This document shows positions 2,903 to 38,764 of a DNA stretch of 64,000 nucleotides, piece by piece. A model generated the notes under the pieces. The model was given only the letters and a program-made list of their open reading frames with translations. It ran no database searches and was not told the DNA's origin. Origin of the DNA: Mesorhizobium sp. SARCC-RB16n (GTDB taxonomy: Bacteria > Pseudomonadota > Alphaproteobacteria > Rhizobiales > Rhizobiaceae); NCBI RefSeq assembly GCF_008520305.1, contig NZ_ML703263.1:211551-275550 (forward strand), given 5' to 3'. The position numbers and the translations under genes were made by a program. The stretch's first letter is position 1, and each line of letters begins with the position of its first letter.

Positions 2903-2949
2903 TTATACCCTCCCAAGTTACTCAGTCTCGCCATGTTCCCGGCCGATGC

Positions 2950-15054: not shown

Positions 15055-16317
15055 TTATTTTGATAAAGTCCCTGCGCGTCTTGCGATCCGATCTTCCATT
15101 CCCGTCCGGGTCACGGAAGGGCACTGCAATATGCAGATGCCCCCTGTGAACACCAAAGTGCCCAGAACCCAAGACAACCAGATCCGATGGTCGACCGACA
15201 GTTCGACAACAGCTATGATCAGGTAGCTGCTGGCTATGAAATGGCAGGGGCCGCTCAAACCGCCGATCATTCTTATGATCGCACCCAGGAGCACCCCATA
15301 CACAATGATGCCCAGCGCTCCCAGTTCATACCACAAATCGAATACGATATTGTGTGCGCTTGGGAGATCCACCTGCGCATAATATGTGGGATTCGCCACG
15401 ATCCCGACCGCGTTTCTCGTCGTATTGGCGCCATGGCCGAGAAGCGGCTGGTCCGCAATGTGGGGCGAGATCATCTGCCAAAGATCAAGGCGCGCGGCGA
15501 ACGTTCCTGGATAGAAAGCCAGCAATCCGGTTGTTTTGAGGTAGGCGAACAGCGGCGAGACTACGAAGGGGGCGATCAGGGCAAAAGACAAATAGACGGC
15601 GAAGAATCCGACCAGGGCGTGTTGGCGGTATTTCGCGGGCATGACAAAAATCGCCGCTACGAAGACAATCGCCAGATTGACGCCGGTCGATTGGCCGTAG
15701 AGCAATGTCAGCACGGCAAAGAGAGCCGCAAGCCCCTTCCAGACCAGCCTCGGCTGGGCAAGAAATATGACGGCAAAAAAAGCCCCGTAGACCGTGATCT
15801 TGTGGAGGGTGAAAACATTCCCCACAAATCTTGGATCTTCGGTCAAAAACGCAAAATACAGTTCCCAACCCATCACCGACACCAGGCCAATCAGTATGCC
15901 GACCAATGAGACCCGCGCGAGCCGGTCGCGCTGGGCACTCGGAAGCGCCAGAATGCACTCAAACAGCAGGATGGCGGCGACCGAGTAGCCAAACAGGTCC
16001 CTCGCCGCCATGAGAGAGCGGCTCGCGTTGACCGACCACAGGGCGCTGGACAGGACAAAGCCGGACAAGAGAGCGAGAGTGACGGCGAGGACTGTCGTTG
16101 CCCTGCCAAAGCGTGCACCCTTCGTCAAAAGGGCAAGAGCGCCCATGACAGCCGCGACAAGTGCCAGGGCCGTCGGAGACATTTCGATGAAGACGAAAAG
16201 GGCGGGAGAGAGGGCGAAGAGGCCCAGCAACATCCTAAGGACTATTTCGTCACGACTGCTGGTCCATACCGGAAATCCGCCCAAAATGACGGCATGGCAT
16301 TTCTGAAAAAAGAACAT
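15055..16317 (-). CDS. O-antigen ligase/polymerase-family membrane protein
   Basis: The 420-residue protein is almost entirely hydrophobic, with about ten predicted membrane helices and one longer periplasmic loop containing the RLDLWQMISPHI..PLLGHGANTT stretch, the hallmark of the Wzy_C/O-antigen ligase superfamily (WaaL, Wzy, ExoQ). It either joins or polymerises surface glycan on the periplasmic side. It lies 54 bases downstream of cysQ on the same strand, so it is probably the last gene of the cysD-cysNC-cysQ unit. The ATG at 16317 has no clear ribosome site; an alternative ATG is at 16233. Specific role, ligase or polymerase, is undecided. Confidence 0.75.
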   Translation of the reverse strand: MFFFQKCHAVILGGFPVWTSSRDEIVLRMLLGLFALSPALFVFIEMSPTALALVAAVMGALALLTKGARFGRATTVLAVTLALLSGFVLSSALWSVNASRSLMAARDLFGYSVAAILLFECILALPSAQRDRLARVSLVGILIGLVSVMGWELYFAFLTEDPRFVGNVFTLHKITVYGAFFAVIFLAQPRLVWKGLAALFAVLTLLYGQSTGVNLAIVFVAAIFVMPAKYRQHALVGFFAVYLSFALIAPFVVSPLFAYLKTTGLLAFYPGTFAARLDLWQMISPHIADQPLLGHGANTTRNAVGIVANPTYYAQVDLPSAHNIVFDLWYELGALGIIVYGVLLGAIIRMIGGLSGPCHFIASSYLIIAVVELSVDHRIWLSWVLGTLVFTGGICILQCPSVTRTGMEDRIARRAGTLSK

Positions 16318-16371
16318 TCAACTACCGACTCAGGGAACGCCGGTACAGGATAGGTCATTGGCGGAGGCGCC

Positions 16372-17205
16372 TCAACGTTCGATACGTCCTCCGGTTGCAA
16401 CTCTGCCGCTGGCGATGAAATGCGGATTGGCGAAGTCCTCGTCATCGGCCTGGTTGCGCTTGCCATAGGTCAAGGGCTTTCCGTCCAGCGTGCGCGTCGT
16501 GCCGCCGGCGGCGCGCAGCACCGCGTCACCCGCCGCGGTGTCCCATTCCATGGTGCGACCGAAGCGCGGATAGACATCCGCCTCGCCATTGGCGAGGAGG
16601 CAGAATTTCAGCGACGAACCGACCGAGACGATCTCGGCGGCACCAAGGTCGCGAATATAGGCTTCGGTTTCCGGTGTGTTGTGCGAGCGGCTGGCAACCA
16701 CGGCCAGCGGCGTCACGGCCGTTCTCACCGAAATCTGCCGGCGAGAAACGATCCGGTAGCCGCCATCGACTTCGAGGGCTTCCGCCCTGCCCGGCAGACC
16801 GGAAAAGAAGCGGCCGCTGCATGGCGCGAAGACGACGCCGACTTCCGGCACGCCATGGCGGACAAGCGCGATGTTGACGGTGAAGTCGGTGCGCCGGTTG
16901 ACGAATTCCTTGGTGCCGTCCAGCGGATCAATGAGGAAGAACACCTCACCAAGTTCGCCCGGCATGACGCCGGCCGCCGCTTCCTCCTCGGCCACGCAGG
17001 GAATGTCGGGGAATTCCGTGCGCAGGCCGGCGAGAATGATCTTCTCGCTCTCGCGGTCCGCCTCGGTCACCGGCGAGGAATCCGATTTGCGGTCGACCGC
17101 GCAGCCGGCGTGGAACACACGCATGACCTCGCTTCCGGCGGCCAGGGCCAGCCGCTCGAAGATTTCAAGCATCGAACTGTCGTCAGATGCCGCCGCCATT
17201 GTCAT
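16372..17205 (-). CDS. cysQ: 3'(2'),5'-bisphosphate nucleotidase CysQ
   Basis: CysQ hydrolyses 3'-phosphoadenosine 5'-phosphate (PAP), the inhibitory by-product of PAPS-dependent sulfotransferases or PAPS reductase. The 277-residue protein has the inositol-monophosphatase-family motifs [23 protein letters not shown] and [10 protein letters not shown], which bind the metals. I place the start at the ATG at 17205, preceded by GAGGA; a GTG at 17226 is possible. The start lies inside the 3' end of cysNC (overlap of 23 bases), indicating translational coupling with PAPS synthesis. It is followed by the O-antigen ligase-like gene. Confidence 0.93.
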
Positions 17206-19120
17206 ATTGGTCCTCGGCAATGTCACGCTCGTTCAGCCAGTGTTCCAGGGCATCTACCATCTCTTCAGCCGACTTGCCGAGCGTCTCCAGATGGATCTCC
17301 GGTTTCTCCGGTGCTTCGTAAGGAGAATCGACACCGGTGAAATTCTTGATCTCGCCATTCAGCGCGCGGGCATAAAGACCCTTCGGATCACGCCTGGCGC
17401 ATTCCTCGAAAGGCGTATCGACAAACACCTCGATGAACTCGCCATCGGCCATCAATTCCCGGGCCATGCGCCGCTCGGCGCTGAACGGCGAAATGAAGGA
17501 AACAATGACGATCAGCCCGGCATCGGCCATCAGCTTGGCCACTTCGGCGACGCGGCGAATGTTCTCGACACGATCGGCGTCGGTGAATCCGAGGTCGCGG
17601 TTGAGCCCGTGACGAACATTGTCGCCGTCCAGGATATAGGTATGGCGGCCGGTGGCGAACAGCTTCTTCTCGAACAGGTTGGCGATGGTCGACTTACCGG
17701 AGCCCGACAGCCCCGTGAACCAGAACACGGCGGGCCGCTGGTTCTTCATGTCGGCGCGCACGCGCTTGCCGACATCGAGCGACTGCCAATGGATGTTTTC
17801 GGCGCGGCGCAGCGAGTGCACGATCATGCCGGCGCCAACCGTGGCGTTGCTGATGCGATCGATCAGGATAAAGGCGCCAGTGGTACGGTTCTCGCCAAAC
17901 GGATCGAAGGCGATCGGCGCCCGCGTTGAAATGTTGCAGATACCGACTTCGTTCATTTCAAGCGACTTGGCCGCCTCATGGGCAAAATCGTTGACATTGA
18001 TGCGATATTTCAAGTCGGTGACGGTGGCGCTGGTCTGATCGGTCTCCGTGCGCAGGATATAAGACCGGCCCGGCAGCAGCGCATGCTCGTCGAACCAGAC
18101 GATGTTGGCGGCGAACTGGTCGGCGACCTGTGGCCGTGCGGCCGGCGAAACCAGCATGTTGCCCCTGGAAACCTCGACCTCGTCGTCAAGGACGAGCGTT
18201 ATGGCCTGGCCGGCCACCGCTTGTTTGAGATCGCCGCCATAGGCGACGATGCGTTTGACATGCGAGGACTTGCCCGATTTTGCGACGACGACCTCGTCGC
18301 CTTGCGCAACGGTACCGGACGCGATGGTGCCGGCGAAGCCGCGAAAATCGAGATTGGGGCGATTGACGTACTGAACCGGAAAGCGGAACGGCAGTTCGAC
18401 AGTAGTCTCTTCGACCGAAACGGTCTCGAGGTGCTCGATCAACGTCGGGCCGGAATACCAATGCGTGTTTTCGGAGCGGGTGCTGACGTTGTCGCCGTAG
18501 CGGGCCGACATCGGAATCGGCGTGATGGTCTGGAAACCGAGATCGCGCGAGAACTGCCGGTAGTCCTCGACGATCCTGTCGAAGACCGCCTGGTCGAAAT
18601 CTACAAGATCGATCTTGTTGACCGCCAGCACGATGTGGCGGATGCCGAGCAGCGAGGCGATGATCGAATGCCGCCGGGTCTGGCGCAGCACACCCTGCCG
18701 GGCATCGATCAGCACGATCGCCAGATCGGCGGTCGAGGCACCGGTCGCCATGTTGCGTGTATATTGTTCGTGGCCGGGCGTGTCGGCGACGATGAACTTG
18801 CGCTTCGGCGTGGCGAAGAAACGGTAGGCGACGTCGATGGTGATGCCCTGCTCGCGCTCGGCCTCGAGGCCGTCAACGAGCAGCGCGAAGTCGATGTCGT
18901 CGCCTGTCGTGCCGTGCTTGCGCGAATCGCGTTCGAGCGCGGCGAGTTGGTCCTCGAAAATCTGCTTGGTGTCGGACAGCAGGCGTCCGATCAACGTCGA
19001 CTTGCCATCATCCACCGAACCGCAGGTGAGGAAGCGCAGCAGCGACTTCTTCTCCTGCGCGGCCAGATAATCGCGGACGCCGTCCGTGGGAGCGAGGCTC
19101 TTTGCCATGATGTGGCGCAT
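17183..19120 (-). CDS. cysNC: Fused sulfate adenylyltransferase subunit 1 / APS kinase (CysNC)
   Basis: This bifunctional protein forms ATP sulfurylase with CysD (GTP-driven APS synthesis) and phosphorylates APS to PAPS. Residues about 25-445 are an EF-Tu-like GTPase half with [27 protein letters not shown] and NKIDL. Residues about 450-640 are APS kinase with P-loop GLSGSGKST (Lys476), [10 protein letters not shown] and FISPFSAER. The 645-residue length fits CysNC/NodQ fusions. Its ATG at 19120 follows the cysD stop by two bases. The kinase half means that the product is PAPS, the sulfotransferase donor. No cysH, cysI or nod genes are adjacent, which fits a sulfation role beside polysaccharide genes, though it may also feed cysteine synthesis. 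Confidence 0.95.
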
Positions 19121-19122
19121 GG

Positions 19123-20049
19123 TCAGAAATACCCCTCGCGCTTCTTCTTTTCCATCGAACCGGCTTCATCGCGGTCGATCAGGCGACCCTGCCGTTCGGA
19201 TGTGCGTGCCGTCAGCATCTCGCCAACAATGGCTTCGAGTGTGTCGGCGTCGGATTCGATGGCGCCGGTCAGCGGATAGCAGCCAAGCGTGCGGAACCGC
19301 ACCAACCGGTCCTCCACGACCTCGCCGGGGAGCAGCTTCATGCGATCATCGTCCTTGAGGATCAACATGCCATCGCGTTCGACAACCGGCCGCTGCTTGG
19401 CGAAATAGAGCGGTACAATCGGGATGTTTTCCTGCAGAATGTACTGCCAGATGTCGAGTTCGGTCCAGTTCGACAAGGGGAAGACGCGGATCGATTCTCC
19501 CTGAGCGACACGTGTGTTGAAAATCTTCCACATTTCGGGCCGCTGGTTCTTCGGATCCCACACATGCTGGGCATTGCGGAAAGAGAAGATGCGCTCCTTG
19601 GCGCGCGACTTTTCCTCGTCGCGACGGGCGCCGCCAAAGGCCGCATCGAAGCCATATTTGTCGAGCGCCTGGCGCAACGCCACGGTCTTCATCACATGGG
19701 TGTGGGTGTTCGAACCGTGATCGAACGGATTGATGTTGTCGCGCACGCCGTCTTCGTTGACGTGAACCAGAAGGTCGAACCCCAGCTTCTGCGCCATCTG
19801 ATCGCGAAATGCGATCATCTCGCGGAATTTCCAGGTGGTGTCGACGTGAAGAAAGGGGAATGGTGGCTTGGCCGGATAAAACGCCTTCATCGCCAGATGC
19901 ATCAGCACCGACGAGTCCTTGCCGACGGAATAGAGCATGACCGGCTTGGCGAAGGCTGCCGCGACCTCGCGGAATATGTGGATGGACTCGGCTTCAAGCC
20001 GCTGCAGATGCGTAAGCGCTGGTATCATGGACCGTGAGTGTTCTCTCAT
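19123..20049 (-). CDS. cysD: Sulfate adenylyltransferase subunit 2
   Basis: CysD is the catalytic PP-loop subunit of ATP sulfurylase, making APS from sulfate and ATP. The 308-residue product has the modified PP motif [40 protein letters not shown] and the C-terminal GCYPLTGA and KKKREGYF, all typical. I chose the ATG at 20049; the open frame extends three codons to a TTG. It is the first gene of the cysD-cysNC-cysQ-ligase unit, with two bases between it and cysNC. The promoter should lie in the 430-base gap upstream. Confidence 0.95.
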
Positions 20050-20479
20050 GCCTTGCAACAGAAATCCTGCGTCATCGAGCCCTTTGCGCCCGGTTCAAGC
20101 TTCGCTTCTGGACAAAGTGTTTCGTGCGGGCGTTCTAGCAGATCGCCGCGGCGCAGAACAATGCAAGACGAGCCCGGCAGCGGTCTGTTCGAGAATGAAT
20201 TTTCCACGCCTGTGGCAAAACTCGGAAATTTCTGCTTGAAGGGCCGCCAGCCGGGAAAAGGCAGGAAAAATATTGCCTGTGGGAGCGATGCAGCAGGGCT
20301 ACTGGGCCCGACTAGGGGATTTCGGCGGCAATCGATCCGGGCGCACTATCGAAATAGCGGCCCAGCCGCTATACGCTTTTCGAGAGTGGGCAAGTGCGTG
20401 ATGGAGCATGGGCAGTTTCGAGGCGAGCACATTCGACGACGTGCCGCATAAAATTTCTCTGGAATAGCAGGTCCGAAAA
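20050..20479. other. Divergent intergenic region cysD / O-antigen ligase-like gene
   Basis: This 430-base gap separates two divergently transcribed genes and must hold both promoters. I see no convincing coding frame, no clear -35/-10 pair and no recognised operator. A weak palindrome (AGGCA and TGCCT, about 20262-20279) flanks an AT-rich core. An overlapping plus-strand frame (20038-20451) has arginine/serine-rich composition unlike a protein. Confidence 0.4.
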
Positions 20480-21832
20480 TTGAACCGGCTTTCATCCATA
20501 AGGCAGCAATTCACGCCTTCGCGGATCAATATCTACTTCTCCATTCTCTGCTTCTTTTCACCCCCGGTCCTGGGATCGGTAGTCAGCTTCGTGTTCAATG
20601 GCGGCGGCCTGTGGTCCGTCCTGTTGATCGCCTTGAAGAGAAGACGCTTCAATGTCGACCGCGCGATGATGGCGCTGACGATCGCGATCTATGCCTATTG
20701 CGCAAGCAATGTCATGGCGTCTCTCGTCAACCACGCGATCGTCAAGGACGCCCGGCATCTTATCCCGCTGATCACCTTTCTGTTTTTTCCCATCTCCTAT
20801 TCGACCTGGAGCATTTCGCAAAAGACAACGCTCGTCCGCATCATTGTGTTGGCCAGCATGGCGGCCTGTTTTGGCGCGCTGCTGCTGGCGGTCTACCAAC
20901 AGTATCGGCTTGGTATGCGCGCCGAGGGCGGGGCCGGGAATGCGATCGTGTTCGCTGAGGTCCTCTGCCTTGCGGTGGTGACCTGCGTGGCCGCTGCCCT
21001 GTCCGGCATAGAGAAATACAGGATCGCCCTCATCTGCGCTGCACTCGGCGGAACGATCGCCATCATCTACTCCGGTACGCGCATTGTCTGGCTGGCACTG
21101 CTGATTGCCGGTGTCGCCGTTCTGCTGATCAACCAGCAGAAGTTGAGAGGTAGAAATGCCATCCGCGTGCTTTTGCTGCTGGCCGCGATCGCGGCCATGA
21201 TCGCGGTTTTCGGGTTCCAGACGATAGCGGGGCGTGTCGAATTTCTGCACTCCGACTGGGATGCGCTGGCGGCTCATGGTGACCACACGACAGCTTTGGG
21301 ATCGCGCGTCGCCCTTTGGGATATCGGCCTGAAGGCATTTCGTGAGATGCCATTGTTCGGACATGGAGTGGGTGCCACCCATGCTTTGATCAAGCAGGGC
21401 TTTCAGGAACAGTTCGGGATGGATGAAGGTTTCAATCATTTCCACAACGGCTTCCTGACCGCCTTGGTGCAAGCGGGAATCCTGGGTGCGGTGACGCTGG
21501 CGGCGATCTTTGTCGTTGCCGCCAGCAATGCCGCTCGGGTCCTTCGCGACAGCGCCGATCCGATCGAGCGGTTCGGCGCTACCATGATTGTCGCCGTCGT
21601 GATCACCTATCTGACCGCTGGAATGACGGGCATCCTGATCGGCCATGACATTCTGGACTCGGTCTTTATGGTCTTCCTGGTGTCGGGAACATATCTTGCC
21701 AGTGGGCGCCAGGCTGCGTTGGTGGAAGGGCAAGTCCTTCCACCAGGGGTGGCAGTCCAGGCGATGTCACCAGCGAACGGCCAAGTCGTTCCATCCGTGG
21801 AAGGCCTGGCATCTCCGCCAGCCGCCCAATAA
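20480..21832 (+). CDS. O-antigen ligase/polymerase-family membrane protein
   Basis: The 450-residue polytopic protein has 10-12 hydrophobic helices and a Wzy_C-type periplasmic loop containing SRVALWDIGLKAFREMPLFGHGVGATH followed by FNHFHNGFLTALVQAG, the signature of WaaL/Wzy-family enzymes (segments quoted separately; residues about 272-335). A short hydrophilic tail of some 40 residues follows the last helix. The start is a TTG at 20480, accepted because the first membrane helix lies just after it and no ATG occurs for 60 codons. It is 17 bases upstream of the reductase gene and likely co-transcribed. With an ABC exporter in the cluster, a WaaL-type ligase is required, so one of the two family members here probably does that job. 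Confidence 0.78.
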   Translation: MNRLSSIRQQFTPSRINIYFSILCFFSPPVLGSVVSFVFNGGGLWSVLLIALKRRRFNVDRAMMALTIAIYAYCASNVMASLVNHAIVKDARHLIPLITFLFFPISYSTWSISQKTTLVRIIVLASMAACFGALLLAVYQQYRLGMRAEGGAGNAIVFAEVLCLAVVTCVAAALSGIEKYRIALICAALGGTIAIIYSGTRIVWLALLIAGVAVLLINQQKLRGRNAIRVLLLLAAIAAMIAVFGFQTIAGRVEFLHSDWDALAAHGDHTTALGSRVALWDIGLKAFREMPLFGHGVGATHALIKQGFQEQFGMDEGFNHFHNGFLTALVQAGILGAVTLAAIFVVAASNAARVLRDSADPIERFGATMIVAVVITYLTAGMTGILIGHDILDSVFMVFLVSGTYLASGRQAALVEGQVLPPGVAVQAMSPANGQVVPSVEGLASPPAAQ

Positions 21833-21849
21833 CCGGTCCGGGCAAGACA

Positions 21850-22797
21850 ATGAAAGTCCTGGTTACCGGCGCGACGGGCTTCATCGGCCGCCAGGTGGTC
21901 CATCGGCTTCGTGAGGCCGGTGTCGAACTTCGCCTCGCCTCCCGCCAGCCGGAGAGACTTGATGCGGGGTCAGACGCCGTGCCGATGCCGGAGTTCGATG
22001 CACCGGCCGCTGCTTTCCTGGCGCTGACCAGGGATGTTACGGATATCGTCCATTGCGCGGGTCTGAACAATGACCAGGGCAATGCCACCGAAGCCGATTT
22101 TCGGGCAGCCAACGCACAATTGAGCGCACGTCTGGCGCATGCCGCCGCCACGCAGGCAAGCGGACGGTTCATCCATCTTTCCTCGATCCGGGCCGTGATC
22201 GGCGCGCGTGCCAGCGCAAAGATCGACGAAGACACGCTCCCCGCCCCCCAAGACGCCTACGGGCGCTCGAAACGCGAAGCAGAAATTGCCGTATCGGGCG
22301 CCTATGCCTCGCATGGCCGTACCGACGCCGCCATATTGCGGCTGCCTCCGGTCTACGGGATTGGCATGAAAGGAAACCTGGCGACGCTGATGCGGCTCGC
22401 CGACACGGCGCTGCCGATGCCGACAGGCGCACTGACGGCAAACCGCTCGCTGCTGTCATCGCAATCCGCGGCACGGGCGGTGTGGCATCTGCTTTGCCAT
22501 TCGCAGCCGCTTCGTCCGGTCTATACCGCCAGCGACGTGCCGCCGGTTTCCGTCGCTGCCATCATCGGTGCCTTTCGCCACGGTTTCGGGAGACCGACGC
22601 GCCTGATGGCAATGCCGGCCGGACCGATGCGGGCGGCGGCCATACTGCTTGGCAAGCGGACGTTCTGGGACAGCCTGACCGCGACACAAATATGCGACCC
22701 TTCGCTCCTTGCCTCGGAAGGCTGGGCGCCGGAAACCAACACGCTGGAGCGGCTGACCGAGATAGCGCGGCTCCGAAAGCTCCGGCTTCCTGTTTGA
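21850..22797 (+). CDS. NAD-dependent 4-keto-nucleotide-sugar reductase/epimerase (WreQ/WbpV-like)
   Basis: The 315-residue short-chain dehydrogenase has the cofactor motif GATGFIGR (residues 7-14), the Ser segment HLSSIRAV and an intact YxxxK pair (Tyr137, Lys141). Together with the neighbouring initiating phosphosugar transferase and the membrane 4,6-dehydratase it matches the sets used for UDP-N-acetyl-quinovosamine (WreQ, WreU, WreV in Rhizobium etli) or FucNAc (WbpV, WbpL, WbpM in Pseudomonas). It would reduce UDP-4-keto-6-deoxy-GlcNAc in the cytoplasm. It is in a plus-strand pair with the ligase-like gene and converges on the transferase gene, 43 bases away. Confidence 0.8.
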   Translation: MKVLVTGATGFIGRQVVHRLREAGVELRLASRQPERLDAGSDAVPMPEFDAPAAAFLALTRDVTDIVHCAGLNNDQGNATEADFRAANAQLSARLAHAAATQASGRFIHLSSIRAVIGARASAKIDEDTLPAPQDAYGRSKREAEIAVSGAYASHGRTDAAILRLPPVYGIGMKGNLATLMRLADTALPMPTGALTANRSLLSSQSAARAVWHLLCHSQPLRPVYTASDVPPVSVAAIIGAFRHGFGRPTRLMAMPAGPMRAAAILLGKRTFWDSLTATQICDPSLLASEGWAPETNTLERLTEIARLRKLRLPV

Positions 22798-22840
22798 CCC
22801 TAGTTCAAAGACTGGTTTCTGCTTCTGGGGCCCGGCGTGC

Positions 22841-23380: not shown

Positions 23381-23492
23381 GAGTGGCCGATAGGGCTCCC
23401 TGCCAGGGCTTCGCGCGACAACTGCGAGCGAAGCCCGTCATCCGGTCGACGTAACATGAGGTCGCCTCCTGACCAAGCACACCACGCGGTGT

Positions 23493-24425: not shown

Positions 24426-24470
24426 TGATGTCAAACGCCTTGCCGCGCGAGGTTTTCCGAGCCACGAACA

Positions 24471-24553: not shown

Positions 24554-26540
24554 AGCTCGCCTGCCCGGCCGTCTTTGGCACCGCGTCGTGCCGCGCGTTC
24601 GCCCTTGTCTTCGTCGCGCGGTCGAGATCGGCCAGGATGGTGAGCGAGGCTGCCTTGTCCTGGCTCTTCATGGATTGCTGCAGCGCTGCAAGTGCTGCCT
24701 GGACATCCGACCACTGCGCGACATCGGTGCTGAGGCCAAAAATCTTGGCAATGCTGAGCTCGACCAATTCCTCGTCTTCGCCGTGCAGGGTCTCGTGGAG
24801 CTTTTCACCCGGCCGGATACCCGTGAAGCGGATTGGAATGTCCGTATAGGGGCTCTTTCCCGCCATACGGATCATCGTTTCGGCTACTTCGACGATCGGC
24901 ACGGGCTTGCCCATGTCGAGCATGTAGACGGCGTAGTCCTGGTCGGCCGGCCGCGACGCGGCATCGGCCGCCGACATGATGACGAGATCGACGGCCTCGG
25001 CGACAGTCATGAAATAGCGCGTCATGCGCCGGTCGGTTATGGTGACCGGCCCACCGGCCTCGATCTGGGCCTGGAATATGGTCGCCACCGAGCCATTGCT
25101 GCCGAAGACATTGCCGAAGCGCACAGCGATGAACTTGGTGGCGGAGCGGCGCCCACCCGGTTCGCCGGCCGGTGTTCCATGCAAGGCGCTGACGATCTGT
25201 TCGGCTGCCCGCTTGGTCATGCCGAGCACGGATGTCGGATCGACGGCCTTGTCGCTCGAGACCATGACGAATTGCGCCACGCCGCATTTGGCGGCGACCT
25301 CGGCGCAGACAAGCGTGCCGAAGACGTTGGTCTGGATGGCCGATTCCCAGTTCTCCTCCAGCAGCGGAACATGCTTCAACGCCGCGGCATGGAAGATGAT
25401 GTCGGGTTTGAACTCCGTGACGACGCGCGTCATCTGGCGCCTGTCGGCGACATCGACGATGCGGACCTTGAGGCGGTCATGGTCCTTGTCGTCGACATAC
25501 TGGCTCAACTGGAAGATGCCGAATTCGGAATTGTCGGCGACCAGCACGGCCTCGGCCCCCAGCTCCAGCGACCGCTTGACCAGCGTTCGCCCGATGGAGC
25601 CGGCGCCTCCCGTGACCAGTACGCGCTTGCCGCCGACGAAGGCGCCGATGCGCTCGATGTCGGAAGGCACCGTCGGCCGCCGCAGGATCGTTTCCATCTC
25701 GACGGCATCGAGAACGAGCTTTCCCTCCTGGCCCAGTTGCGAAAGCCCCGAGAACTGCACGACCCCGATGTCGCCGTGACGCGCGATGCGGACCAGCTCG
25801 GAATATTCCTCGATCTCATGCTCGGCGCCGCTGCCGAAGATCAGCAGGTCGAGGCTCTTGCTGCCGGTCGCATAATCCTCCAGGACATCGATCAGCCGCG
25901 GCCGGGTCGCTACCACGGGAACCCCGTGAATGCGCGTGCCGAGCGGTGCGCCGCGCTCGGTCGCCATGATGCCGGCGATGGAATGGTCGGCGGGCTGCGC
26001 CGTGCGCGTGAAACGAATGATCAGGTCGGCCTCGCCGAGCCGCCCGACGAACAGGGCCTGCTTGGTCCGCGCCGTGTCGGCCTTGCCGTTCAAAATACCC
26101 CAGCTCGCGCCGTCACGCAGGAAGCGGTAGAACAGCCGGGGCGCCGAGATGATGGTGAAGGAGACGAGCAGGAAGACGATGAACTGGCGCTCGTTGAGGC
26201 CCGCGACAGGCTGGAAGGAGCGCAAGACCAGCGAAACGGCGTAGAGCACGAGTGTCAGGATCGCGCAGCTCTTCAGGATGTTGAAGAAATCGGGCGTCGA
26301 GGCAAAGCGCCAGACCGTGGTGTAGAGGCCGCAATATCTGAACAGAAGATGGCTGATGAAAACGATGCTTGCCCAGGTGACAAGGCCCTCCGTGGAGAGC
26401 GCCCCGAACGAAAGATCCGACCGCGACAGGACAAGGCTGAGCGCGACGGCGACCAGGACCATGACCACGTCCTGGACCATGATGAAGGCGCGCCGCATCC
26501 CGGGCCTGAGTCCGAACACAGCTTCCAGGGAAGTATTCAT
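24552..26540 (-). CDS. Membrane-anchored UDP-GlcNAc 4,6-dehydratase (WbpM/WreV-like)
   Basis: The 662-residue protein has about four N-terminal membrane helices (residues 15-130), a CoA-binding-like middle domain, and a C-terminal short-chain dehydrogenase domain with GGAGSIGRTLVKRS. The catalytic segment is VSSDKAVDPTSVLGMTKRAAE: the SDK triad typical of WbpM/PglF is intact, and the usual Tyr of YxxxK is replaced by Leu (Met in WbpM and PglF). It converts UDP-GlcNAc to the 4-keto-6-deoxy sugar that the reductase at 21850 uses. It heads a minus-strand unit with the glycosyltransferase and the initiating transferase, divergent from wzm. Confidence 0.9.
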   Translation of the reverse strand: MNTSLEAVFGLRPGMRRAFIMVQDVVMVLVAVALSLVLSRSDLSFGALSTEGLVTWASIVFISHLLFRYCGLYTTVWRFASTPDFFNILKSCAILTLVLYAVSLVLRSFQPVAGLNERQFIVFLLVSFTIISAPRLFYRFLRDGASWGILNGKADTARTKQALFVGRLGEADLIIRFTRTAQPADHSIAGIMATERGAPLGTRIHGVPVVATRPRLIDVLEDYATGSKSLDLLIFGSGAEHEIEEYSELVRIARHGDIGVVQFSGLSQLGQEGKLVLDAVEMETILRRPTVPSDIERIGAFVGGKRVLVTGGAGSIGRTLVKRSLELGAEAVLVADNSEFGIFQLSQYVDDKDHDRLKVRIVDVADRRQMTRVVTEFKPDIIFHAAALKHVPLLEENWESAIQTNVFGTLVCAEVAAKCGVAQFVMVSSDKAVDPTSVLGMTKRAAEQIVSALHGTPAGEPGGRRSATKFIAVRFGNVFGSNGSVATIFQAQIEAGGPVTITDRRMTRYFMTVAEAVDLVIMSAADAASRPADQDYAVYMLDMGKPVPIVEVAETMIRMAGKSPYTDIPIRFTGIRPGEKLHETLHGEDEELVELSIAKIFGLSTDVAQWSDVQAALAALQQSMKSQDKAASLTILADLDRATKTRANARHDAVPKTAGQAS

Positions 26541-26847
26541 TAGGCAGTACTAAACTCCGGGCTGTCGGCGAGACCACCAGCAAAGTGTGAGCACGAGAAT
26601 CATTCGTGACTGTCACACTTCCAAGTAGCATCTCCGGCCCCCGCCTGCTGTATCGCATACTGCGGGCTGCGAGGCATAGCCAGATGTTTTTTTGGGGGAG
26701 AGCGAGTGGTCAACGGAAAGCACGAAGCCCAGTCGCGCAAAATTGCTGCGAACCCGGCATTAGACATTGCTTACAGACGACCGCACGTCATCAGCACGTG
26801 TCCAGTTTTGCCGCAGTTGACTCTTCTCCAGACCTCATTACGACGCA
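26541..26847. other. Divergent intergenic region, dehydratase / wzm
   Basis: About 307 bases between the minus-strand dehydratase and plus-strand wzm. It includes a run of seven T followed by five G at about 26689-26700. I see no clear promoter hexamers or credible gene. An open frame crossing it (26606-26875) lacks a ribosome site and overlaps wzm. Confidence 0.4.
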
Positions 26848-27747
26848 ATGCGTTGCCATATGCCCATCGAAATGACTATTAGAGGAGGGCTTGGTGGTTC
26901 GCTATGGCCAGCGAAGGATAATGCGCCAAAACAACAGATTGCGACACTCCCAGCTATGATTGCGGCACTAAACGGCGCTTTTGACGACATTTCAAAAGCC
27001 ATGAAATTACACCGGGTCTGGGTCGCGCTTGCCCATGAGGATATTGGTGATCAGCACAGGCGCACGACGCTCGGGCCGCTTTGGCTTCTGGTCAACTACG
27101 TTGCCTTTGTGGGAACGTTCGTCTTCGTGTTCCAGCCCGCAGGCAAGGGTGCGGCTGGTTATGCCGCCTATGTCGCGATCGGCCTTCTGGTGTGGTTCTA
27201 CCTGATGGAAGTGATGTCCATGAGCGTGGCGCTCTTCCAACGCGAAGAGAGCTTCATCGAAGGTACGACGCTGCCTTTGTTTGTGTATGTGATGCGATTG
27301 GCTTTGCAGTCCATCATCAGGGCGGGCTATGCGATCGTAGGTTGCGTTGTCATTCTCATATTCAGCGGCTCCCCTGTCGGCATGCCATGGCTGTGGTCAC
27401 TGGCAGGATTATTCCTGATCTTGTTCGCCACTCCCCCTCTCATCACTGTCTTCGCGTTTCTTGGAGCCTTCTTCCCTGACAGCCAGTTCATCGTTGGCAA
27501 CCTGCTACGCGTCGGCATGTTCTTCACGCCCGTCTTTTGGATGAACAAGGGCCAAGACCCTGTCCAGAAATATGCCTACGAATGGAACCCCTTCACTTAC
27601 TTCCTGGAAATTGTCCGTCTGCCGATCACAAACGGAGAATTTCCAGCCCATGCTTTCACTGTAACCATCATGGCATCCTTGGTTACCTGGGCGATAGCAT
27701 TGCTGCTGCTCGGCCGATATCGCAAACAAGTCGTCTTCCTGATCTGA
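26848..27747 (+). CDS. wzm: Polysaccharide ABC exporter, permease
   Basis: This is the inner-membrane channel of an ABC-2-type exporter that flips undecaprenyl-linked glycan to the periplasm. The 299-residue protein has a cytoplasmic N-terminal part with the amphipathic segment and WVALAHEDIGDQHRRTTLGPLW, then six membrane helices including the MSVALFQREESFIE and FFTPVFWMNKG regions typical of Wzm/RfbA/KpsM-type permeases. The start is uncertain: in-frame ATGs occur at 26848, 26860 and 26872, none with a good ribosome site. It is followed after 8 bases by its ATPase. Confidence 0.88.
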   Translation: MRCHMPIEMTIRGGLGGSLWPAKDNAPKQQIATLPAMIAALNGAFDDISKAMKLHRVWVALAHEDIGDQHRRTTLGPLWLLVNYVAFVGTFVFVFQPAGKGAAGYAAYVAIGLLVWFYLMEVMSMSVALFQREESFIEGTTLPLFVYVMRLALQSIIRAGYAIVGCVVILIFSGSPVGMPWLWSLAGLFLILFATPPLITVFAFLGAFFPDSQFIVGNLLRVGMFFTPVFWMNKGQDPVQKYAYEWNPFTYFLEIVRLPITNGEFPAHAFTVTIMASLVTWAIALLLLGRYRKQVVFLI

Positions 27748-27755
27748 GTTTTTCC

Positions 27756-28496
27756 ATGGTTTCTATCAAGCTGGACAATGTCAGCCTTGTTTACAAGCTG
27801 CACGACAAGCTGACCCTGTCCGCGCCGGACCGGCGCGTGGGTGGGCCTGGCGGTAGAATCGAGGGCTCGGGCAGAAAACAGTTCGTGCAGGCGCTCGATG
27901 GTGTCAGCTTCGAACTCAGGGCGGGCGACCGGTTAGGCCTTGTCGGCCCGAACGGAGCGGGCAAAACCACGCTTCTCAAGGTGCTCTATGGAATCTACGA
28001 ACCCTCTGGGGGAAGCGTAGCGATCGAAGGCAAGGTCGATGCTCTCTTCAACATCAACATAGGCTTTCGACGGGAGGCTACCGGGCGCCGGAATATCGTG
28101 CTGCGCGGGTTGATCAGCGGATGGACGGAAACCGAGATCGAAGAGAAGATGGAAGACATTATCGCCTTCAGTGAGCTCGGAGATTTCATCGACCTGCCGT
28201 TCAAGGCCTACAGCCAGGGTATGGCCGCAAGACTGGCCTTTTCGGCGGCGACCGCGCTTGATCCCGAGATTCTCTTGATGGATGAGTGGATCGGCGCCGG
28301 CGACGCCTCTTTCCAGGAGAAGGCCAAAAGGCGCATGGACGAACTGGCGGAAAAGGCCGGCATCATCGTATTGGCCAGCCACAGCGAGGCACTCATACAA
28401 AGTGTGTGTACGAAGAAACTGACGCTCAAGAGCGGTCGGATAGAATCGCTGACGACGGAGCCGGTCAAGCGTGCCGGAAAGGTAGCTAAGCTTTAG
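27756..28496 (+). CDS. wzt: Polysaccharide ABC exporter, ATP-binding protein
   Basis: This is the ATPase partner of the Wzm permease. The 246-residue protein has Walker A GPNGAGKTTLLK, the export-ATPase loop GFRREATGRRN, signature YSQGMAARLAFS (the degenerate form normal in Wzt/TagH) and Walker B EILLMDEWIGAGD. It has no C-terminal carbohydrate-binding domain, so chain-end recognition of the kind seen in the long Wzt proteins is not expected from this subunit. The ATG at 27756 is the only start giving the normal N-terminus MVSIKLDNVSLVY; the frame upstream overlaps wzm. A 230-base gap separates it from the large glycosyltransferase gene. Confidence 0.9.
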   Translation: MVSIKLDNVSLVYKLHDKLTLSAPDRRVGGPGGRIEGSGRKQFVQALDGVSFELRAGDRLGLVGPNGAGKTTLLKVLYGIYEPSGGSVAIEGKVDALFNINIGFRREATGRRNIVLRGLISGWTETEIEEKMEDIIAFSELGDFIDLPFKAYSQGMAARLAFSAATALDPEILLMDEWIGAGDASFQEKAKRRMDELAEKAGIIVLASHSEALIQSVCTKKLTLKSGRIESLTTEPVKRAGKVAKL

Positions 28497-28726
28497 ATTT
28501 CCCAGTATCTTCCGGAAAATGACGCGGCAAAAACGATCTTATTGACGCGCGCCATTCCGCCTTGGCCGATGCACAGAATCCTTTACAAGATTTTCGCGTT
28601 CCGGGGCGGATGAGAAGATATTCGGCTAGCATAGGCAGTCTAAAGAACATATCGAATGGACGATGCGCCGGGTGCCGTTTGGGGAAGGCATTGTTGGAGC
28701 AGCGTTCGATGATGCGGAGATAGTTC

Positions 28727-31700
28727 ATGGTCCCCTTGGCCCCACCGAAGCGTGTTTGCATCCTCGTTTTGGGCATGCACCGCTCTGGGACGAGTGCAAT
28801 CACGCGCGTATTGAGTCTTTTGGGAGCCGCCCTACCTCACCACCTGATCAACGCTACGCCGACTAATGAGGCGGGTCACTGGGAGCCTGCGCGGCTGGTG
28901 CAGATCAATGACAGCATGCTGACGGAGTTCTCGAGTCGTTGGGATGATTGGCGCGCCCTCGACCCTGCAACTCTAGACGCAGCGAAGCTCGAGCATTACA
29001 AAAGCGCTATCAAAGAAGCGATTGCAGCCGAGTTCGGAGATGCGTCGCTATTCGTGATCAAGGATCCGCGAATCTGCCGATTCGCACCATTTTATGAATC
29101 GATCCTGGCCGAGATGGGTGTGGCCACCCGATTTGTGCTCATTCATCGTAATCCCCTCTCGGTGCTGGCATCTCTCGATCGCCGCGATCAGATCTGCGCG
29201 AATTATGGGGCGCTGGTTTGGCTGCGGCACGTATTGGACGCCGAAACTTCGACGCGCAGCAAGGACCGGGTGTTGGTCAGCTACGAGCAACTGATGGATG
29301 ACTGGTCGTCGGTGGTAAACGAGATCGCGACCGCACTCGGCATCAACTGGCCCGTTGGCGATCACGCCTCAGAATTGATCGATCAGCACTTGCGCCGGAG
29401 TCTTCAGCATCACGCCGCTTTGCCCGCAGATTTCATCCCCAAGTCGCTTGTCGGCGGTGCGGTCAGGGAGACCTATCAGTCGCTCCTTGCTCTCCCCCAT
29501 CCAGAGTCGGTCGAGTCGGCGCTTGTAGTGCTTGATCGCGCCAAAGCGGCACTGGATGCTGGCGCACCTGTGTTCGCCGATGCACTTTTCGAGGAGATGG
29601 CAGTACGCCAGCAGCGCGAGACGCTCAACCGCGAGCATTTGGAGCGGCTTGCGGCAAAACGCCAAGACGAGATGGAAGCGTTGGCCAGAAAAATCGAGGG
29701 TAACGACGCCCGTATTGCTTCGCTCGAGGAATTGTGCCGCCAATCGGACCTGAACCGGGCCGCCGTAATGGCAACACGTGAAGCTGGACTTTTGAGGGAA
29801 CTTCAAGAACTCAGAGGCACGGTGACCGAACTTGAAACCCGAATCAACCAGGAGCGCGAATTTCTCCAGCGGCTAACAGCTGACAACGACAAGGTGAACG
29901 CGCAGATCACGAGGGAGAACGTCGAGCTTCAAGATCAGGTCAGGGCGTTATCGCAGGCACGTGATATAGCCCGCTTCGAAGAGCAACAGGTACGTGACAT
30001 CCTCCAAGCTATTTACGTTAGCACATCATGGCGCATGACCCGTCCAATACGCGCGCTTAAGAAGAAAACCGCTGAGTTCCGCTCAGTGGCAACCGGCGCG
30101 CTTCATCTCATCCGAGAAAGACGATTGACTCCCGCGACTATCGCGAGGGGCGTCAGGCGACTGCCGAGGTTGATCAGCGAAGGTAAGCTCTCCAACCCGA
30201 CCAGCTTCTCCGAACTGACCGAGACGCTCGAGGCCCAGTCTGTTTCCCGTATCCAGAGTGCGTTCGACCGGGAATTCTACCTTCGAAACAACCCCGACAT
30301 TGCAGCGTCAGGCGTAGATGCGCTCTCGCATTTTCTTGCCCATGGTTGGAAAGAGCACCGCGATCCTTCAGCCGACTTCTCAGTCTCATATTACCTTCAA
30401 CGCTATCCCGATATAGCGCGGGCAGGGATCAATCCGTTCATCCATTACGTCTTGCATGGCCAAGCGGAAAAGCGGACGGCTCTGTCCTACAAACGGCGCT
30501 TGGGGCGAAGCGGAATTCGACCTAAGGTCACAGCCATAATTCCCAACTACAACCATGCTCGTTTTCTTGAGCAGCGGTTGGAATCGATACTCTCACAGAC
30601 TTACGAAAACATAGACATCTTCATTCTCGACGACTGTTCACAGGACAAAAGTCGCGAAATCATCCAGCGATACTGCGACCTCTACCCCGGTCGCGTGCGA
30701 TCGCTTTTCAATGTGCAGAATTCTGGCAACGTCTTTCGCCAATGGCGCAAGGGCATCGAACAAAGCGAAGGCGACATCATTTGGATCTGCGAAAGCGATG
30801 ACTTCTGTGAACCCGACTTTGTCGAGCGTTTGATTCCACATCTTCGTGATCGCAGCGTTAACTTGGCCTTCGGTCGCATTCAGTTCTGCGATCAAAACGG
30901 AAGGCCGCGGGCCGGCCTTGATCAGTACCGCGAGGGTGCCGAGGCTGGCATCTGGAATGAGTCGATGGTCCGGCCGGCATCCGAGTGGTTTACCCACGGG
31001 TTCGGCGTCAATAATTTGATAGCCAATGTTGGCGGATGCCTCTGGCGTCGTCAGATCTTGCCGGCCGCAGTCTGGGCGGAAGCAGAGTCATTCTCGGTGC
31101 TCGGCGACTGGTTTCTGTACTGTCATTTGGCCGGCGGTGGGAACGTCGCCTATGAACCTAACTCAGTAGCGTATTTTCGACAGCACGGGCGGAACACCTC
31201 GGTCAGTGCATTTAAGAGCGCACACTACTATACAGAGCATCATCGACTGATGCTGCTACTCCGCAAGACATGGGATGTGCCCGACGAGACCGTCGAGCGC
31301 TTCGTGTCAAAGGTGGAGTTTCAATACAAGCACTTCGAACTTGAGCAAAAGCTCGGCCCATTGAGCTTGCATGTCGACAGGCACGCGCTCCTGAAGGTCA
31401 AGCGCCAGCGCCCACACATCATGTTGGCATTTCTAGGCTTTCATACCGGTGGCGGGGAGCTATTCCCAATCAATCTCGCGAATGAATTGCACGCCCAAGG
31501 CCATCTTGTTTCCATGCTCGCGCTGGACATGAGCAACATCAATCAGCACATGATGGAGTCACTCAATCCCGCCATCGCAGTTTATGATGCGGATCAGGTA
31601 GTGGAGGCCGGTGCAGATCGCTTCGTGGCAGAGGCAGGAGTTTCGCTGATCCACTCACATATGGCGCTTCTCGAAATATTCTTCTTTGAGCATATGAAAT

Positions 31701-32566
31701 TTACGGCCAGCATTCCTTACGTCGTGAGCCTGCATGGATCATATGAGAGCGCGGATCTGAGCGTCGACTTTCTGAAACGCTTCGCCAAGGACGTGACGCA
31801 TTGGGTGTACACGGCGGATCGTAACCTGGAGCCCTTCAGAGCGGTGTCCATTCCTGAAACCAAGCTGACTAAACTTGGCAACGGCATGCCTCGTGACGAC
31901 ATGCCTTTTCCGCAGACTCGCAGGGAAATGGGGATAGCCGACGATGCCGTCGTATTTACCCTCGTAGCGAGGGGAATACTGCGTAAAGGCTGGAGGGCGT
32001 CGATTTCTGCTTTCATCAAACTTCGGGACCGTCATCCCGAGCGGCAGCTACACCTGCTACTGTGCGGCGATGGCGAGCAAGCCGCCAATCACCAACGCAC
32101 CTACGGCTCCGAACCAGGTATCACCTTTCTCGGCTACCAGTCGAGAATTCCTGGACTTTATCGGATCAGTGATGTGGCTCTCGTCCCAAGCCGCTTCGGA
32201 GGCGAGTCGTTCCCTCTGTGCATAATCCAGGCCATGCAGACCGGCACTCCGGTCATATCCACGCGGGTGGGAGAGATAGAACACATGGTGGCTCCTCATG
32301 GACATCCTCCATGCGGCCTCATCATAGATCCAGTGCGCGATACCGACCATTTCATCCAATTGTTGGAAACAGCGATGGAAGACATGATGTCGGATACCTT
32401 GCGCCAGAAGTACGCAAAAAGCGCAAAAAAACTTGGCGAACGCTATAGCATATCAAGCGTCGCTGAGGATTACATGCGCATCTACAACGACTCTATACGC
32501 TCACTGGATCTCAACTCTAACGAAGCTGAAGACGGTCTCCAATCCGAGCGGACAGCGTATCGATAG
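28727..32566 (+). CDS. Multidomain sulfotransferase-like / coiled coil / GT2 / GT4 protein
   Basis: This 1279-residue protein joins at least four parts. Residues 10-210 look like a sulfotransferase: the 5'-phosphosulfate loop GMHRSGTS (16-23) and the 3'-phosphate segment RNPLSVLAS (141-149). Residues about 285-425 are a long coiled coil, followed by VSTSWRMTRPIRALKKK. Residues 510-585 hold two similar segments (FDREFYLRNNPDI and FSVSYYLQRYPDI). Residues 598-830 are a GT2 domain (IIPNYNHARFL, ILDDCSQDKS, CESDDFCEPDF). Residues 895-1270 are a GT4-type GT-B domain (FHTGGGELFPINLA, GGESFPLCIIQAM). No signal peptide is visible, so it is cytoplasmic. It probably builds and sulfates glycan on the carrier; the sulfation is inference. 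It follows wzm-wzt and has AT-richer codon use. Confidence 0.82.
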   Translation: MVPLAPPKRVCILVLGMHRSGTSAITRVLSLLGAALPHHLINATPTNEAGHWEPARLVQINDSMLTEFSSRWDDWRALDPATLDAAKLEHYKSAIKEAIAAEFGDASLFVIKDPRICRFAPFYESILAEMGVATRFVLIHRNPLSVLASLDRRDQICANYGALVWLRHVLDAETSTRSKDRVLVSYEQLMDDWSSVVNEIATALGINWPVGDHASELIDQHLRRSLQHHAALPADFIPKSLVGGAVRETYQSLLALPHPESVESALVVLDRAKAALDAGAPVFADALFEEMAVRQQRETLNREHLERLAAKRQDEMEALARKIEGNDARIASLEELCRQSDLNRAAVMATREAGLLRELQELRGTVTELETRINQEREFLQRLTADNDKVNAQITRENVELQDQVRALSQARDIARFEEQQVRDILQAIYVSTSWRMTRPIRALKKKTAEFRSVATGALHLIRERRLTPATIARGVRRLPRLISEGKLSNPTSFSELTETLEAQSVSRIQSAFDREFYLRNNPDIAASGVDALSHFLAHGWKEHRDPSADFSVSYYLQRYPDIARAGINPFIHYVLHGQAEKRTALSYKRRLGRSGIRPKVTAIIPNYNHARFLEQRLESILSQTYENIDIFILDDCSQDKSREIIQRYCDLYPGRVRSLFNVQNSGNVFRQWRKGIEQSEGDIIWICESDDFCEPDFVERLIPHLRDRSVNLAFGRIQFCDQNGRPRAGLDQYREGAEAGIWNESMVRPASEWFTHGFGVNNLIANVGGCLWRRQILPAAVWAEAESFSVLGDWFLYCHLAGGGNVAYEPNSVAYFRQHGRNTSVSAFKSAHYYTEHHRLMLLLRKTWDVPDETVERFVSKVEFQYKHFELEQKLGPLSLHVDRHALLKVKRQRPHIMLAFLGFHTGGGELFPINLANELHAQGHLVSMLALDMSNINQHMMESLNPAIAVYDADQVVEAGADRFVAEAGVSLIHSHMALLEIFFFEHMKFTASIPYVVSLHGSYESADLSVDFLKRFAKDVTHWVYTADRNLEPFRAVSIPETKLTKLGNGMPRDDMPFPQTRREMGIADDAVVFTLVARGILRKGWRASISAFIKLRDRHPERQLHLLLCGDGEQAANHQRTYGSEPGITFLGYQSRIPGLYRISDVALVPSRFGGESFPLCIIQAMQTGTPVISTRVGEIEHMVAPHGHPPCGLIIDPVRDTDHFIQLLETAMEDMMSDTLRQKYAKSAKKLGERYSISSVAEDYMRIYNDSIRSLDLNSNEAEDGLQSERTAYR

Positions 32567-32636
32567 TATTTGATCCAGAGAACCTGCGGGACGAAACATA
32601 GCCGAGCTAAACTAGACTGTTAGACAGCCGCGTCCA

Positions 32637-34196
32637 TCATTCTTTCAACCTGACTAGTGCAGCACCTCGATATAAGGTGATGAAGTCGATTGTTGGGAAG
32701 AGCGACCGCTGGAAAGCGTCTGGCTCTTCGGCCAAATTCAAAACTCGTTGCCCAACAACGAGCCGGGCAAGCCTTTGAAGGTAGGCCGCCGCGGACTCCG
32801 TTGCCCCTCCATGGTAATTGGGAACGTATTTGCCATAACTCGTGTCTAAGTCCTCGATTATGTAAAAGCCGCCGGGCGTGACGCTGCCGATTAGCTTCTG
32901 AAACGTCAATATCTGGTGGGTCCAGACGTGGGAACCGTCATCGACAATGACATCGAACGGCCCTTTGGCTCCGAGCAAATCGAGATCCTGAACCTTTGAC
33001 TGATCGAGAATTTCAATTTGTATCCTGTCTTGCTCATGTGCTTTGGCGCGAGGGTCAATATCGACACCGACGATCTTGCCATTGCGAAAGTAGTCCTTCC
33101 ATGTCCGCACAGAGCCGCCGTTAAGGACGCCGATTTCGAGCAGCTTGATCGGCTTATCACGCATCGGGCCGAGGAACCGGTCATAGAAATTGAGGAAATT
33201 GTTTTGGTTTGAACCCTTGTCGGTGCCGTAGCGATTGCCAATCGTATCGAGCGTTTCGTGCATAAATTGGCTCCTCCTGAAACTATCGAGATACTCCTCT
33301 ATCCGAAGATCCGACGGATCGAAAGGCCTCCAATTCCGGTCATCGTTGAAATTATCAAGATCGAGAAAGGTGGCAAGAGACATCCCATTAGTAAATTCTG
33401 ATATACGAGCGTTAGCGTCGATATGGATATTGTTGAAATGACTACGATACTCTGGCGATCGGAAGAACCGCGCCCTGTCATAGTTCGGGAATGGCACATC
33501 GCGAAAGCGGGTAAGCAAGTGTTGTTTATCTTCGACACCATCCGTGACTGATAACATATAGGTTTCTGGCCTGGACAGGCTGTCATTGATGCGCTCGGCC
33601 GGTTTCGACATCTCATTCCAGAGCATCGGAAAACCGATAGCGACGCAAAAGTCCTGACCGAGAGATCCATCTGACCAAAGTTTCGAGTTGTACGGACGCA
33701 CCTTTACGCGTTCGGCACCGAGGGCGTTCACGAAGGGCCTCAGTATTTCATAGAACTCCAGCTGGTATTGAGCGGCTTCAATGGGGCCAACGAGGTAATC
33801 CTTGACGCTCTCGGCATATACACTTTCGAGGAGGTGATCGAAACGTCGCAAATAAAACAGTGCCGTCACCTCGTCGGCCATCGCCCACAAGCCATCAAAG
33901 AACGACGGCGCGCTTATCCGCGATAATTCCTCTCCAGAGATCAGTAGCGTCTCGCAATTGGAATCCAGAGTGAAGACCCGACCGAAGTTCGCCTCAAACG
34001 ATTTGGTGGCGTCATAGTCGACTGCGACGATGCTGTGCTGGGGGCCGAACATCCGATCCTCGGGATCGCGGTAATCCGGATAGTGGATCGAATGAGCCGT
34101 CAGAACATCTCGATTAGAAGCGAGGGTGGCTTGAAGATAAGAGCTTCCGGTCTTGTGAATTCCACAATGCAGGATGATTGTCTTGTAGCGCGGCAT
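32637..34196 (-). CDS. Sulfotransferase-like / SAM-methyltransferase fusion protein
   Basis: The 519-residue protein has an N-terminal domain (about 5-290) beginning IILHCGIHKTGSSYLQATL, in which HKTGSS (14-19) is the P-loop-like PAPS-binding motif of sulfotransferase-family proteins, with LISGEELS and FYLRRFDHLLES further on. Residues 315-519 form a class I methyltransferase: YGTDKGS, LLEIGVLNGGSV (353-363, SAM-binding), GVDIDP, VIVDDGSHVW and IEDLDTSY, as in the CmcI/Methyltransf_24 family. It likely modifies sugar residues of the glycan. It is the distal gene of the rfb-methyltransferase-epimerase minus-strand series and converges with the 1279-residue gene. Neither activity is proven, and the sulfotransferase call is the weaker. 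Confidence 0.78.
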   Translation of the reverse strand: MPRYKTIILHCGIHKTGSSYLQATLASNRDVLTAHSIHYPDYRDPEDRMFGPQHSIVAVDYDATKSFEANFGRVFTLDSNCETLLISGEELSRISAPSFFDGLWAMADEVTALFYLRRFDHLLESVYAESVKDYLVGPIEAAQYQLEFYEILRPFVNALGAERVKVRPYNSKLWSDGSLGQDFCVAIGFPMLWNEMSKPAERINDSLSRPETYMLSVTDGVEDKQHLLTRFRDVPFPNYDRARFFRSPEYRSHFNNIHIDANARISEFTNGMSLATFLDLDNFNDDRNWRPFDPSDLRIEEYLDSFRRSQFMHETLDTIGNRYGTDKGSNQNNFLNFYDRFLGPMRDKPIKLLEIGVLNGGSVRTWKDYFRNGKIVGVDIDPRAKAHEQDRIQIEILDQSKVQDLDLLGAKGPFDVIVDDGSHVWTHQILTFQKLIGSVTPGGFYIIEDLDTSYGKYVPNYHGGATESAAAYLQRLARLVVGQRVLNLAEEPDAFQRSLFPTIDFITLYRGAALVRLKE

Positions 34197-38733: not shown

Positions 38734-38764
38734 CCCGCCGTCCTTATGCAAAAACACGCTCCCA

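Follow-up and report, generated by a model that had tools for sequence, protein, structure and literature searches.

What does a set of genes for making activated sulfate serve inside an O-antigen cluster? The question is raised by a stretch of 64,000 nucleotides from Mesorhizobium sp. SARCC-RB16n (contig NZ_ML703263.1; hereafter the window, in whose numbering all positions are given), in which cysD, a fused cysNC and cysQ lie beside glycosyltransferases, sugar-modifying enzymes and an exporter (Table 1). The unit probably has two purposes within an ABC-transporter-type O-antigen cluster, feeding both cysteine synthesis and sulfation of the O-antigen. From family knowledge, CysD and the CysN half of CysNC would convert sulfate to adenosine 5'-phosphosulfate (APS), the CysC half would convert part of this to 3'-phosphoadenosine 5'-phosphosulfate (PAPS), and CysQ would turn leftover 3'-phosphoadenosine 5'-phosphate (PAP) into AMP. 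The rest of the APS would go to a distant CysH of the APS-reductase type for cysteine, as copy number and CysH type suggest. Fold, motifs, domain fusion and linkage suggest that two sulfotransferases encoded in the cluster spend PAPS on the O-antigen during its assembly in the cytoplasm; judging by protein families, the sulfated chain would be exported by Wzm/Wzt, after which a Wzy_C-family ligase would attach it to lipid A-core. The initial annotation had proposed PAPS synthesis, PAP removal and two putative sulfotransferases within an O-antigen cluster. Matches to curated families, the motifs, the predicted folds and the statistics of the locus bear out that gene content, while sulfation of the O-antigen itself is something we still infer.

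The sulfate-activation unit and the fate of APS

CysD, CysNC and CysQ all pass curated NCBIfam cut-offs, which confirms the identities first given to them. CysNC is also above cut-off for the curated models TIGR02034 and TIGR00455, and both of its P-loops are intact (GSVDDGKS in the GTPase, GLSGSGKS in the kinase); CysQ contains the phosphatase motif DPLDGT. Two nucleotides separate the cysD stop from the cysNC ATG, and ATG candidates for cysQ lie within the 3' end of cysNC, the likely start being at 17205 or 17199, overlapping the cysNC end. For cysD, translation probably begins a few codons downstream of the listed TTG. Translational coupling of these three genes, as originally described, is thus upheld, but its extension to the next gene, wzyA, is not. 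This gene does encode a Wzy_C-family protein, as had been noted; it follows cysQ after a gap of 54 bp, so coupling stops short of it. A relative of wzyA stands at the same place in just 2 of 22 relatives (G001, G023), and wzyA was therefore rejected as an essential last member of the unit.

The order cysD-cysNC-cysQ is kept in all 22 Mesorhizobium relatives in which the surroundings of cysD were compared. A relative of wzyB (at least 58% identity) adjoins cysD in 16 of these, and degT adjoins cysQ in 20. The best named match of CysNC is Mesorhizobium loti CJ3sym (97%); the nearest compared genome, G001, has 26% of sampled 31-letter words in common with the window, and the cluster proteins of the two are mostly 91-99% identical. 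One relative (G018, L059:15704-16427) has a second cysQ-like stretch behind cysQ; its matches fall in two frames (71% and 59%), and it may be a duplicate in decay.

CysNC is present in 60 of the 61 genus genomes searched: as a single copy in 52, as two copies in seven and as three in one. Left out of this list were the second part of a copy broken across contigs (G059), a 54-residue fragment (G076), one 34% match to the kinase alone in each of G002 and G048, and a pair of 30% matches in G058; a G072 copy interrupted by an inner stop is counted. A second, sulfation-only cysDNC set is rejected for the genus, as most relatives have a single CysNC. These copy numbers are those of relatives, from which the window strain may differ. 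Because CysNC is normally single-copy in relatives, the unit should normally serve cysteine synthesis too. The observation that no cysH or cysI lies nearby stands, since tblastn with the cysG, cysI and cysH genes of G001 found no relatives in the window (best E = 0.029). No nod genes had been noted nearby either, no search aimed at them having been made.

The type of CysH bears directly on the fate of APS. Its CC...CxxC cysteines, which we take to be those holding the iron-sulfur cluster of APS reductases, are present at 7 of 7 loci (the main cysH of six genus genomes and an extra cysH of G017). The CysH of G001 passes the general model NF002537, and is below cut-off for both the APS model TIGR02055 (180.4 bits, cut-off 235.3) and the PAPS model TIGR02057 (160.2 bits, cut-off 254.2). 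In the account of a review, rhizobial CysH prefers APS over PAPS (PMC6192434). If CysH takes APS, no APS kinase is needed for cysteine, and the APS-kinase half and its PAPS therefore point to sulfation. CysQ alone proves no sulfation, because PAP is also produced by acyl-carrier-protein synthase.

Against this background it is highly improbable that the unit serves cysteine synthesis only and owes its O-antigen neighborhood to historical accident. In favor of that idea, the genus normally has just this one CysDN set, and the cysQ-side synteny (cysD-cysNC-cysQ-degT) recurs in Aminobacter and some other related genera, where the flanks are different. Yet the APS-type CysH renders the APS-kinase half unnecessary for cysteine. 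The nodPQ mutant of M. loti is reportedly a cysteine auxotroph, and a comparison with cysH is also said to have been made. According to the review account of that work, the mutant has no sulfated polysaccharides (Townsend 2006, via PMC6192434), which argues against a role in cysteine synthesis alone. The initial annotation would have been abandoned if this were the only cysDN set and its loss gave just cysteine auxotrophy; relatives do have only one set, whereas the second half is contradicted for M. loti nodPQ (PMC6192434), which may be the counterpart of the present locus. Given an APS-type CysH, sulfation and cysteine synthesis ought to come apart when only the APS-kinase half is missing, a distinction that a complete nodPQ deletion cannot draw.

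Two putative sulfotransferases

Two proteins with PAPS-type loops had been placed about 9-13 kb from the unit, and they lie 8.7 and 12.6 kb from cysD. The first (GT-type), with the loop GMHRSGTS, consists of a sulfotransferase domain (residues ~9-230), a helical linker (~290-450), a family 2 glycosyltransferase (603-734) and a group 1 glycosyltransferase (1063-1235). The second (MT-type), with the loop HKTGSS, carries a methyltransferase behind its sulfotransferase-like domain. Both N-terminal domains have a PAPS-sulfotransferase fold in predicted structures, the nearest relatives of the MT-type fold being heparan-sulfate enzymes. In the GT-type family the loop for the 5'-phosphosulfate (R19-S23) and an arginine/serine pair (R141 and S149) are present in 19 of 19 sequences; such a pair, eight residues apart, we take to be the 3'-phosphate site, the loop and the pair being the two PAPS-binding motifs. 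The MT-type family has a K15-G17 loop (G17 in 11/12), R117 (12/12) and S125 (11/12).

A Pfam scan of the MT-type protein gave no PF13469 or PF00685 sulfotransferase match; family profiles and the predicted fold are the basis of its assignment. Weak matches occur in its family, to PF13469 in 5 of 12 members (best E 0.0014) and to PF00685 in 2 of 12 (best E 0.0038). Compared profile against profile, the two families resemble each other weakly with alignments A1 and A2 (probability 30.9) and more clearly with the wider sets A3 and A4 (86.5). Patterns containing the P-loop served to collect A3 and A4 (for A4 the Arg/Ser stretch as well), which partly selects for conservation at those sites; A1 and A2 were collected without these patterns. 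Neither domain, nor alignment A1, retrieved a sulfotransferase when searched by sequence against solved structures; fold comparison did.

The union of a sulfotransferase with two glycosyltransferases in one polypeptide suggests that sulfation is coupled to chain assembly. Of 43 GT-type family matches, 25 fall within open frames of at least 850 residues, lengths that fit frequent fusion of the domain, the partner domains there being judged by frame length alone. It is quite improbable that these are PAPS sulfotransferases for another substrate, such as protein tyrosine or a small glycolipid: against this stand the fusion of the GT-type domain to two glycosyltransferases and the likeness of the MT-fused domain to heparan-sulfate enzymes, with the reservation that a shared fold shows no substrate. 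We infer that both proteins are catalytically active and that their acceptor is a sugar of the O-antigen rather than of another glycan, so that the window strain would carry an O-antigen sulfated by these two predicted enzymes.

The G001 genome carries the methyltransferase half as a gene of its own (L012:9751-10377, 88% identical), next to a different and very divergent sulfotransferase-like gene (L012:10401-11405) that matches profiles A1 and A3 but shows no similarity to the window domain in BLAST. The difference between the two genomes is an apparent module swap at the same place. It is possible, though doubtful, that sulfation is built into chain synthesis by the enzyme that shares a polypeptide with glycosyltransferases, that the sulfotransferase-methyltransferase modifies or caps the chain, and that strains change their sulfated serotype by swapping sulfotransferase modules, with PAPS coming from an invariant cysDNC-cysQ core.

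Relatives of the two families were also seen in other settings. Seventy IMG/VR viral contigs (L183-L252) encode relatives of the GT-type sulfotransferase domain. In Pseudohoeflea sp. DP4N28-3 (L069), two long MT-type family proteins and Wzm/Wzt-like genes lie upstream of cysD-cysNC-cysQ (295-7308).

Sulfotransferases at other CysNC loci

The linkage of sulfotransferases to CysNC was compared with chance. Within the 61 genomes, 12 of 19 GT-type matches lie no more than 35 kb from a CysNC, against about 0.2 expected; this test used matches beginning at query residue 12 or before in the 61 of 119 genomes that were also searched for CysNC. The MT-type family is matched in 11 of 119 genomes, and members of the two families lie about 5 kb apart in three (G059, G097, G127). 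The 77 distinct PF13469/PF00685 genes of 16 genomes that are complete or nearly so include 11 lying no more than 30 kb from a CysNC, where 0.87 would be expected; matches below the family cut-off had been dropped and pieces less than 1 kb apart merged. At the main locus alone there are five such genes in four of the 16 genomes (0.67 expected). These tests treat related genomes as independent, so that the odds are overstated and the P values too small. Linkage of sulfotransferases to CysNC is frequent, not general.

Divergent extra CysDNC copies (~67% identical) in relatives also sit with sulfotransferases, a further point against a unit for cysteine only. Two genomes (G049, G051) have an extra CysDNC within 7 kb of two sulfotransferases each. 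All three CysNC copies of G047 have a sulfotransferase less than 24 kb away, at 3.6 and 23 kb for the extra copies. The second CysDNC of G011 (L052:7247-18707, 68-69% identical) belongs to a cluster resembling those for exopolysaccharide, together with genes for a Wzx-like flippase and for two each of group 1 glycosyltransferases and sulfotransferases. A Pec_lyase protein in that cluster has a match to D-glucuronyl C5-epimerase just below threshold (23.1 bits, cut-off 23.3), and the product is possibly a glycosaminoglycan-like sulfated polymer.

Several observations weigh against O-antigen sulfation by the two cluster proteins. Of seven MT-type matches in the 61 genomes, two are within 35 kb of a CysNC, one is at 275 kb and four are on other contigs, and 12 of the 16 genomes lack a Pfam-detectable sulfotransferase within 30 kb of the main-locus CysNC. 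Outside the genus, a credible sulfotransferase loop was found at only 3 of 80 named CysNC loci (L069, L078, L124, from 24 matched by a regular-expression loop scan); L069 and L124 also match a profile, and profile A2 matched none of the 3944 open reading frames at these 80 loci. All 16 genomes encode at least one strong PF13469 protein (at least 144 bits) away from the locus, and a PF09037 match occurs in 12 of them. In Aeromonas salmonicida, a sulfotransferase gene is conserved in the O-antigen cluster, and the known structure is sulfate-free in the account consulted (PMC4483657).

The strong PF13469 proteins (500-630 residues) and the PF09037/LpsS-like proteins are distant candidates in relatives for a different use of PAPS, in which sulfotransferases encoded elsewhere would modify the lipopolysaccharide (LPS) core or a capsule and the two cluster proteins would be minor or inactive. 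In its favor, M. loti is said to have both sulfated LPS and sulfated capsule, and reportedly a homologue of LpsS. This use of PAPS is unlikely, given the enrichment of the GT-type family at the CysNC locus and the intact motifs of both cluster proteins. Sulfation of the O-antigen by these two proteins remains the preferred reading.

The surrounding cluster and known sulfated glycans

Wzm/Wzt, an initiating transferase, a WbpM-like enzyme and a ligase-family protein are all present, as in ABC-transporter-type O-antigen clusters. So too, together, are the PAPS genes, sulfotransferase, glycosyltransferases and exporter of a sulfated-polysaccharide cluster. The trio of WbpM-like dehydratase, reductase and PF02397 transferase presumably resembles that of the N-acetylquinovosamine-starting O-antigens of Rhizobium etli. 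The start of wzt is probably near 27750, as relatives align from about residue 72. The coiled-coil protein at 35485-36765 is distantly like the methyltransferase half of the MT-type fusion (36%), and a Pfam scan of the longer frame there gave no match at E 0.01. The position of rfbD/rfbB is conserved among relatives. The G+C fraction is 0.61 over cysD-cysQ, 0.64-0.65 at the wbpM and rfb borders and 0.51-0.55 across the sulfotransferase proteins, a drop that would fit an exchangeable serotype block.

Table 1. Features of the sulfate-activation unit and the surrounding cluster in the window
Position	Strand	Feature	Evidence
15055..16317	-	wzyA, Wzy_C-family membrane protein (ligase or polymerase), optional neighbor	PF04932 54.5 bits (cut-off 31.7)
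16372..17226	-	cysQ, 3'(2'),5'-bisphosphate nucleotidase	TIGR01331 343.7 bits (cut-off 228.8)
17183..19120	-	cysNC, ATP sulfurylase large subunit fused to APS kinase	NF004035 1070.3 bits (cut-off 715)
19123..20058	-	cysD, ATP sulfurylase small subunit	TIGR02039 527.8 bits (cut-off 396.6); NF009214 539.6 (cut-off 413)
20480..21832	+	wzyB, second Wzy_C-family protein, candidate O-antigen ligase	PF04932 82.9 bits
21850..22797	+	NAD-dependent epimerase/reductase, putative initiating-sugar pathway role	PF01370 94.5 bits
22841..23380	-	initiating sugar-phosphate transferase	PF02397 175 bits
23493..24506	-	family 2 glycosyltransferase	PF00535 59.5 bits
24552..26540	-	WbpM-like UDP-sugar 4,6-dehydratase	PF02719 316 bits
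26848..27747	+	wzm, ABC-2 export permease	PF01061 40.7 bits
27537..28496	+	wzt, export ATPase	PF00005 76.2 bits
28727..32566	+	GT-type: sulfotransferase-GT2-GT4 fusion (GT, glycosyltransferase family), 1279 residues	PF13469 38.4 bits (cut-off 27), PF00535, PF00534
32637..34196	-	MT-type: sulfotransferase-like domain (1 to ~230) fused to methyltransferase (~334-480)	family profiles, predicted fold, motifs
34471..35385	-	NAD-dependent epimerase/dehydratase	PF01370 152.9 bits
35485..36765	-	coiled-coil protein, methyltransferase-like N-terminus	89% identical to 421-residue G001 protein
36770..38757	-	rfbD and rfbB (dTDP-rhamnose pathway), variable-block border	PF04321 331.2, PF16363 288.5 bits

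As fused multidomain proteins inside an O-antigen cluster, the present sulfotransferases are unlike LpsS of Sinorhizobium meliloti, which is said to be a stand-alone enzyme. LPS sulfation in that species, with LpsS and NodPQ, resembles the pathway proposed here in being PAPS-dependent and rhizobial (cited in PMC6192434). The M. loti nodPQ system (Townsend, Forsberg, Keating 2006, via PMC6192434) is closer, belonging to the same genus and needing PAPS genes for a sulfated surface polysaccharide. In the review's account, the sulfated LPS of M. loti is made with PAPS, and sulfated surface polysaccharide affects nodulation by this species, which was poorer in the nodPQ mutant. The likeness to the present locus is by description only, and that account does not mention the two cluster sulfotransferases (PMC6192434). 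In the open-access literature searched, no assignment was found for the enzymes placing sulfate on Mesorhizobium O-antigen; this locus names two candidates.

Among clusters reported with a proven sulfated capsule, that of Vibrio sp. KMM 8419 has cysDNC and sulfotransferases inside a polysaccharide cluster, a combination of PAPS and sulfotransferase genes that its authors describe as a hallmark of sulfated polysaccharide (PMC11641403). Its cysC, cysN and cysD are given as second copies, whereas the present CysNC is normally the sole copy in relatives. The cluster of Cobetia marina KMM 1449 unites cysNC, cysD, cysQ, a sulfotransferase, glycosyltransferases, rhamnose genes and an ABC exporter, and its sulfated product is reported as proven by nuclear magnetic resonance (PMC11766843). 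In contrast to the present cluster it is a Kps capsule system rather than an O-antigen one and brings its own sulfate permease, and the published description, as far as consulted, mentions no sulfotransferase-glycosyltransferase-glycosyltransferase fusion (PMC11766843). Sulfated coats and clusters of cysDNC, cysQ and sulfotransferases are thus already known; the two candidate O-antigen sulfotransferases are new, and the less ordinary parts of the locus are the sulfotransferase-GT2-GT4 fusion, the sulfotransferase-methyltransferase fusion and the apparent module swap.

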